8,116 nt of DNA from Candidatus Latescibacterota bacterium (lineage in GTDB: Bacteria; JAAXHH01; JACQVL01), in the NCBI GenBank assembly GCA_016209865.1, contig JACQVL010000230.1:1-8116 (forward strand), read 5' to 3'. The notes under the pieces were generated by a model. The model was not told the DNA's origin. It did no database searches and saw nothing but the letters and a program-made list of their open reading frames with translations. Made by a program: the position numbers and the translations under genes. Every line of letters starts with the position of its first letter. The stretch's first letter is position 1. Below, in pieces: positions 5,061-6,448 of this stretch.

Positions 5061-5693
5061 TTAATGCAGTTTCACACTCACTGCCACTCCATCCCGTAGG
5101 GGAATGATCGTCGTCCAGACCTCCGAAGACGCGTAGCTCAGCCGATTGTACTCCTGGATCGCCTGCGTCCAGGCATCCGTCGAGGGAGAGACCACCTGCC
5201 CGCTCCAGAGGACGTTGTCCGTGACGAGCAAGCCGCCGCGCCGGATGCGGGGCAGAGCGAGGGAGAACACTTTGGGATAATCGTGTTTATCGACATCGTT
5301 GAAGATGAGGTCGAACGTCCCTTCCGTCCTGGCCAGCAGGTCGAGCGCATCCCCGACCAGCACCTCGACTCGATCCGCCACCCCGGCGCGGCGAAGGTAA
5401 TCGCGTGCTTTCTCCGCATTCGACGCGCTCCCATCAGTGTAGTAGACTTTCCCGCCGTCGCCGACCGCGCGGGCCAGCCAGATCGTGGAATACCCGATGG
5501 CCGACCCCATCTCGAAGACGCGTGTCGCCCCGCTCATCCGCGCAAGCTGGTGCAGCAGTCGCCCGACGAGCGGGCCGATGATGGGGATGGAATGCTCCTT
5601 CGCCACCGCTTCCATCTCCGCGAGCGTGGCGTCACGCTCCGGCAACAGTGCAGCCAAATAATCGTGAAGCGGACCAGGCAGGACTTGATGCAT
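5061..5693 (-). CDS. Class I SAM-dependent O-methyltransferase (COMT / caffeoyl-CoA type)
   Basis: A 210-residue cytoplasmic methyltransferase of the metal-dependent O-methyltransferase family 3 (PF01596 type). SAM motif I is VFEMGSAIGYSTIWLA (59-74). The second-strand region reads VYYTDGSASNAEKARDYL (83-100), with Asp87 where an acidic residue contacts SAM ribose. VEVLVGDALDLL (109-120) follows. Likely divalent-metal ligands lie in FNDVDKHDYPKVF (131-143) and VTDNVLWSG (157-165, Asp159-Asn160), as in catechol O-methyltransferase. Length is typical of bacterial members, which methylate catechol-like small molecules; the substrate here is unknown. ATG at 5693 has AAGGAGG about 5 nt upstream. 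It starts 26 nt after the selenoprotein stop, so the two are very likely co-transcribed; this pairing is the only clue to function. Confidence 0.88.
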   Translation of the reverse strand: MHQVLPGPLHDYLAALLPERDATLAEMEAVAKEHSIPIIGPLVGRLLHQLARMSGATRVFEMGSAIGYSTIWLARAVGDGGKVYYTDGSASNAEKARDYLRRAGVADRVEVLVGDALDLLARTEGTFDLIFNDVDKHDYPKVFSLALPRIRRGGLLVTDNVLWSGQVVSPSTDAWTQAIQEYNRLSYASSEVWTTIIPLRDGVAVSVKLH

Positions 5694-5719: not shown

Positions 5720-6448
5720 TCACCATTCTTCCAGGACGGGACCGGAAGGACGGTCGAACAGGGCGAACGCGCGTTCGATGATTCGGCGCTGGAGCGCCGG
5801 GTTGTTCGGCTCCCCTAACGGATACCCCATCGCGTACGGGACGTACAACGCGCGCGGCGGCCGGACCTGCTCGGTGATCTCCCGGAGGAGACTGATGGAC
5901 ACCGTCGAGATTCCGGTCTGTTCAATCGCGCGCTGAATCAGTCCGACCGACTGATTACACAGCGGTCAGGCCGGGGTGAGCAGCACGACATCGACCCCAT
6001 CGTCGCGGAGGAGTTGCGCGACCGCCGGGGCGGTCTGGGCGATCAACCGGCCGGGCGCGGAGATCGACCCCATGAAGCTGAAGTGTCGCCCGTTGAGCGT
6101 CCCGACCCGGCCCTCCGCCCGCATCTCGCGCAGACGATCGAGCGGCAGGACGAGGTTGATGTCCCGCTGCGCGCCCGTCTGATCGAACGCATAGCTCTTG
6201 TGCGAGATGCGCAGCGTCTGGACATCCACGCTGTCTGGAATCTCCCGGTACGACCAGTCGCCCCCCTTGATCGTCTCATCGAACGGCGGCTGGGACGGCA
6301 GATGGACGCCGGTCGTCGTCACCAGAGCCACCCGGCACGCGGGGAGCGGCTTCGACACGGGCGTCCAGGGGGTCTCACGGTACCGCCGTACCCGGTAGAA
6401 CGCGAAGTACGCCTGGACTGAGCGTGGTAATTCGTGCATTCGAGCCAT
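5720..6448 (-). CDS. GrdB-superfamily selenoprotein (glycine/sarcosine/betaine/D-proline reductase selenoprotein B-like), TGA read as Sec
   Basis: Read through the in-frame TGA at 5968-5966, this is one 242-residue protein with selenocysteine 161. The N-terminal part has CRVALVTTTGVHLPS (38-52), like the start of the reductase selenoprotein B family (PF07355), and MGSISAPG (126-133). Then VDVVLLTPA-U-PLC-NQSVGLIQRAIE gives a U-x-x-C pair (Sec161, Cys164), and the protein continues with VRPPRALYV and GYPLGEPNNPALQRRIIERA. This short form lacks the length of true GrdB (over 400 residues), and no other glycine-reductase genes are present, so substrate and reaction are unknown; a redox role is inferred from UxxC. 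A SECIS-like hairpin follows the TGA. ATG at 6448 has no clear ribosome binding site; a putative promoter is so close that the mRNA may be nearly leaderless. ATG at 6439 is the alternative start. Automatic calling would give a 160-residue fragment plus a 60-residue one. A pseudogene is the alternative but fits worse. Confidence 0.88.
5931..5964 (-). promoter_or_regulatory. Bacterial SECIS element (selenocysteine insertion hairpin)
   Basis: One nucleotide after the TGA, the minus-strand RNA can form a lower stem CGCUG (5964-5960) with CAGCG (5935-5931), a 3-nt bulge UGU (5959-5957), and an upper stem AAUCAGUC (5956-5949) with GACUGAUU (5943-5936). All 13 pairs are Watson-Crick. The apical loop is GGUCG (5948-5944). 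Bacterial SECIS elements lie inside the coding sequence, with the loop about 16-37 nt after the UGA and a G at the first or second loop position; here the loop begins 17 nt after the UGA with GG, and GGUC recalls the E. coli fdhF loop bound by SelB. The same bases encode PLCNQSVGLIQR. Confidence 0.85.

Follow-up and report, generated by a model that had tools for sequence, protein, structure and literature searches.

The sea is rich in selenocysteine (Sec)-containing proteins that resemble PrdB, a subunit of D-proline reductase; such proteins, known since 2005, have been filed as "proline reductase PrdB" (PMC1088965, PMC2398784). Their genes ranked with the most frequent selenoprotein genes in two marine surveys, with 42 Sec genes under that name in the Sargasso Sea (PMC1088965) and 235 in the GOS data, where a further 110 homologues had cysteine (PMC2398784). 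A survey from 2016 recorded 131 such Sec genes in 110 bacteria. In proline and glycine reductase, the partner subunit (PrdA or GrdE) forms a pyruvoyl group from a cysteine (Bednarski 2001 and Kabisch 1999, as cited in PMC10298544). Excerpts of recent reviews place the PrdB family under the profile TIGR04483 with a UxxC motif (U, Sec), and those excerpts do not discuss a missing PrdA.

The window analyzed here, a stretch of 8,116 nucleotides from a Candidatus Latescibacterota bacterium, holds a gene of this already known type, a widespread Sec-containing family that resembles PrdB and occurs without the other proline reductase subunit. We consider it quite likely that the gene encodes an intact PrdB-like selenoprotein that acts alone as a thiol-dependent reductase. 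On the minus strand, the reading frame runs from an ATG at 6448 through 160 codons to an in-frame TGA at 5968-5966, and then through 81 further codons to a TGA stop at 5722-5720. The initial annotation had described two pieces in one frame separated by this TGA, the residues PLC after it giving UxxC, and a 242-residue product ending 26 nt before the next gene; its coordinates and counts were exact. That next gene, an O-methyltransferase with its ATG at 5693 and a good ribosome-binding sequence ahead of it (AAAGGAGGGA), is probably co-transcribed with the selenoprotein gene, and the neighborhoods of relatives showed no conserved partnership between the two. The upstream neighbor, a GH57 glycoside hydrolase gene (6552 onward), is divergent. 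The features are collected in Table 1.

Table 1. Features of the selenoprotein locus and its downstream neighbor (positions within the window)
Feature	Position	Strand	Description and evidence
PrdB/GrdB-like selenoprotein gene	5720..6448	minus	242 aa, U161-P-L-C164; read-through frame, Pfam/NCBIfam matches, 85-locus comparison, model
Sec161 codon, in-frame TGA	5966..5968	minus	TGA in 84/85 related loci; Sec machinery in genome
Cys164 codon, TGT, proposed resolving cysteine of UxxC	5957..5959	minus	Cys in 69/75 members
SECIS-like bacterial hairpin	5936..5956	minus	8-bp stem AATCAGTC/GACTGATT, loop GGTCG; fold z, pairing, covariation
O-methyltransferase (PF01596)	5061..5693	minus	downstream of selenoprotein gene; Pfam match

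The coding character of the frame continues past the TGA, as had been proposed from the sequence. GC content by codon position was 0.65/0.47/0.79 after the TGA, like the 0.68/0.49/0.86 before it, and 0.46/0.75/0.65 in the same frame past the final stop, which is unlike either coding part. Homologues align across the TGA up to the end of the protein. Among 149 pairs of close homologues, which are not mutually independent, pN/pS was 0.15 before the TGA and 0.12 after it; by this measure, amino-acid change is selected against as strongly after the TGA as before. Standard annotation would truncate the gene at this codon.

By its profile matches, the protein belongs to the GRDB superfamily and, within it, to the PrdB-like branch. 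The Pfam profile PF07355 (GRDB) matched at 46.8 bits (E=3e-12), above its gathering cut-off of 22, through its last 139 positions, which end just before the Sec. The best NCBIfam match was TIGR04483 (PrdB; 168.6 bits, E=1.5e-49), below the curated cut-off of 300. It was followed by GrdH, GrdF, TIGR01918 (60.5 bits, cut-off 65.45) and TIGR01917 (54.5 bits, cut-off 602.2), all of them below cut-off. Like PrdB of D-proline reductase, the window protein has a comparable length, a nearly full-length match to TIGR04483 and UxxC with Sec, but it falls under the PrdB cut-off, has no prd operon and is accompanied by no PrdA that we could find. With selenoprotein B of glycine, sarcosine and betaine reductases (PF07355, TIGR01917, TIGR01918) it shares the PF07355 match and UxxC; unlike that protein, it has about 240 rather than about 435 residues, falls under the NCBIfam cut-offs and has no GrdE found in its genome. 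The term GrdB-like in the initial annotation holds, with the refinement that the protein resembles the short PrdB more closely than it does GrdB. By description, the selenoproteins called PrdB in the Sargasso Sea and GOS papers are also similar to the window protein, sharing the family name, a UXXC motif and a SECIS of bacterial type (PMC1088965, PMC2398784). The PrdB name is retained in those papers, whereas our searches found no PrdA in the tested genomes that carry short copies.

TIGR04483 matched in 45 of 384 genomes surveyed (about one in nine), in no case above its cut-off, and a TGA lay inside 56 of the 64 matches, some of these being long frames of the GrdB type. The window protein grouped, in a tree of 75 members, with UPxC proteins of Acidobacteriota, Myxococcota and one Planctomycetota row (97/88), and this group adjoins Poribacteria. 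All close relatives carry UPxC (Poribacteria, Acidobacteria, Myxococcota, Planctomycetota and one actinobacterial bin), while remoter members have UGxC or UQLC and, further out, Cys in place of Sec; in a few, both Sec and Cys are missing. Single departures from the motif were also noted: CPETCH, with one extra residue between the cysteines, in L164 (genome G368), and UPLD, in which Sec is retained and Asp stands for the second Cys, in L150 (genome G186).

A structural model of the full 242 residues had a mean pLDDT of 96.4 and a pTM of 0.93. The part after the TGA was modeled as strands and two long helices within the one chain, at a confidence equal to that of the earlier part, and the model points to a single-domain alpha/beta protein. 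A strand (154-158) leads to Sec161 at the start of a helix (162-176), with Cys164 one turn on. Position 161 is Sec or Cys in 71 of the 75 members and Cys164 is kept in 69; D96, P102 and G208 are invariant in the family. A phmmer search of solved structures found no relative, and a profile search of them returned just a repetitive designed protein and weak matches. Because no Foldseek match reached E<=0.001 and no VIA-align match reached Z>=8, we have left the fold without an assignment.

From the motif and the model, a reductase role is moderately probable. The UGA is read as Sec by the resident SelA, SelB, SelC and SelD, directed by the SECIS element just 3' of it. In the proposed sequence of events, the Sec161 selenolate is predicted to attack an electrophilic substrate, after which Cys164 would form a selenenyl-sulphide with Sec161 and the reduced product would be released. 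A cellular dithiol, thioredoxin or similar, would then reset the Sec161/Cys164 pair. Such chemistry would amount to the Sec half-reaction of proline or glycine reductase minus the pyruvoyl subunit. Thiol-dependent reduction through Sec161 and Cys164 is the most likely role, with substrate and reductant being guesses.

In four distant members (L166, L167, L169 and L170), Sec is replaced by Gly or Ser and the second Cys has been lost too. Judging from these sequences, it seems that such proteins reuse the fold without the redox pair, and the fold may have non-redox uses. The persistence of such relatives would suit a binding or sensor protein in which the Sec/Cys pair, rather than catalyzing a reduction, serves to bind a ligand or a metal or to sense redox state, as would the presence of LacI-type ligand-binding proteins among the weak structural matches. 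Those matches had Z below 8, however, and may reflect merely a common arrangement, and Sec is kept almost throughout the UPxC clade, as is usual for catalytic nucleophiles. We regard a binding or sensing role as unlikely. The model also bears on whether both possible products matter, that is, a terminated form of 160 residues and the Sec form of 242 residues, in a ratio set by selenium supply. Decoding of UGA through a SECIS competes with termination in bacteria, which would allow for two products, but the strands at 181-186 and 199-202 and the helices at 162-176 and 217-232 belong to the same confidently modeled chain, and the shorter form would miss part of the core and both active-site residues. 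A functional role for both forms is thus very unlikely.

Whether this reductase would work with a partner was addressed with the profile PF09338, which found no match in the genome of the window (3.75 Mb, 83% complete; G000). In all, 47 of the 54 genomes searched had none, among them several rated 100% complete (G185, G190, G346 and G349). The profile did match GrdE in the other seven genomes, each time adjoining a long GrdB-type frame, which served as a positive control. In none of the 54 genomes did a match lie beside a short PrdB-like copy. PF09338 also covers PrdA, and we ran TIGR04480 (PrdA) as well, which had no match in the window's genome and elsewhere found GrdE proteins, weakly. The uniform absence of PF09338 matches, several complete genomes included, argues that the short protein works without a pyruvoyl subunit, and it is very likely that it has no such partner. 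The initial annotation had called the protein short and stand-alone, outside any visible reductase cluster, and this is borne out by the score below the PrdB cut-off and by the lack of a PrdA/GrdE homologue among the matches in the genome. Without a pyruvoyl subunit, the substrate would be one that needs no Schiff-base activation, and free D-proline is unlikely.

D-proline or glycine reductase proper was rejected as an assignment, at 169 bits against 300 and with PrdA/GrdE not found in the genome. The assembly is incomplete and TIGR04483 is the best NCBIfam match, so that the protein could in principle be a true PrdB whose PrdA was missed, but this is highly improbable given the margin to the cut-off, the failure of both partner profiles in this genome, the PF09338 result across the other genomes, where the same profile does find GrdE, and the fact that its matches never adjoin a short copy.

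The genome has the machinery to decode the TGA as Sec. It contains selA (351 bits), selB (337 bits), selC, a tRNA-Sec gene with anticodon TCA (UCA) that begins 83 nt past the selB match, and selD (390 bits). The selD gene itself has a TGA in frame at the position usual for Sec (GAGUACK), which means that the genome has at least two selenoprotein genes. SelB scored above cut-off in 14 of the 16 genomes of the window's order, so the Sec machinery is old in the order. No PrdB-like protein or PrdB profile match was found in the other 15 genomes (G001-G015); either the PrdB-like gene arrived in this lineage or it was lost elsewhere in the order. Codon 161 was compared across 80 loci from a genome-contig search together with relatives from whole genomes, giving 85 loci with the window's own excluded. 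The position was TGA in 84 of them, across several phyla, and the sole exception was the TGC of a Cys relative (L021/L171).

The SECIS stem starts 9 nt after the TGA, and its loop begins 17 nt after it. Bacterial SECIS elements have been described as hairpins that closely follow the UGA and have a small, guanosine-containing apical loop, and the window's element agrees with this description in its position and its small, G-containing GGUCG loop (PMC1088965). Two stretches containing the hairpin had folding z-scores of -2.6 and -3.2; for a longer stretch starting before the TGA, the best-energy fold differs from the SECIS hairpin. No Rfam family matched at the element. Covariation was assessed for the inner seven pairs in an alignment of 84 loci without gaps, where 96.7% of cells were standard pairs and the covariation score was 0.310, against 0.149 when shuffled and no more than 0.049 with the partner slid by 1-3 columns. 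Columns 19/27 were UA in 47 sequences, AU in 17 and GC in 2, with both sides changed in 19 of 74 sequences. In these columns, where Thr (ACN) replaces Ser (TCN) in the 5' arm, a Gly codon in the 3' arm has T instead of A as its third base, and the compensating 3'-arm changes leave the amino acid mostly unaltered. Columns 15/31 (UA 54, CG 10, GC 2) and 18/28 (GC, GU, AU) also covary, and G22 and T23 of the loop are invariant.

Overall, five independent lines (machinery, TGA conservation, a covarying SECIS, downstream selection and the full-length model) support decoding of the UGA as Sec, and the apparently broken gene is almost certainly intact. This bears out the selenoprotein proposed initially, for which homologues were to be compared at position 161 (84 TGA and one TGC) and selA, selB, selC and selD sought in the same genome (all four found). 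That the gene is instead a pseudogene or a sequencing error, by nonsense mutation of a Cys codon, has next to no probability despite the single base separating TGA from TGT or TGC and the existence of the TGC relative, as the identical TGA recurs across phyla, purifying selection persists downstream of it, the SECIS covaries and the Sec machinery is complete.

The neighborhoods of relatives gave little guidance on the substrate. In Poribacteria (e.g., L057, L064 and L065), the gene usually lies between two same-strand genes for Gfo/Idh/MocA-type oxidoreductases, identified by reading their sequences, a possible hint that the substrate in that group is a sugar acid or resembles inositol. Outside Poribacteria, no widely recurring neighbor was found and neighbors vary by lineage. 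We rejected neighborhood as a general guide, there being no shared partner beyond the poribacterial arrangement; the substrate had been left unassigned initially, which holds, as the gene's neighbors point to none.

For a bacterium that uses Sec, one such selenoprotein gene is ordinary, and the wider point about naming matters more. Since matches to the PrdB profile are nearly all Sec-containing, none passes as a true PrdB and most are without PrdA, the name may be borrowed, and a selenoprotein that ranks with the most common in the environment may thus carry it without a known reaction. We suggest, tentatively and at slightly less than even chances, that the short PrdB-like proteins are no proline reductases but a separate, broad selenoenzyme family that carries out reductions with no pyruvoyl partner, in bacteria lacking the Stickland reductases. 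If so, the label "proline reductase" on hundreds of environmental genes would be wrong.
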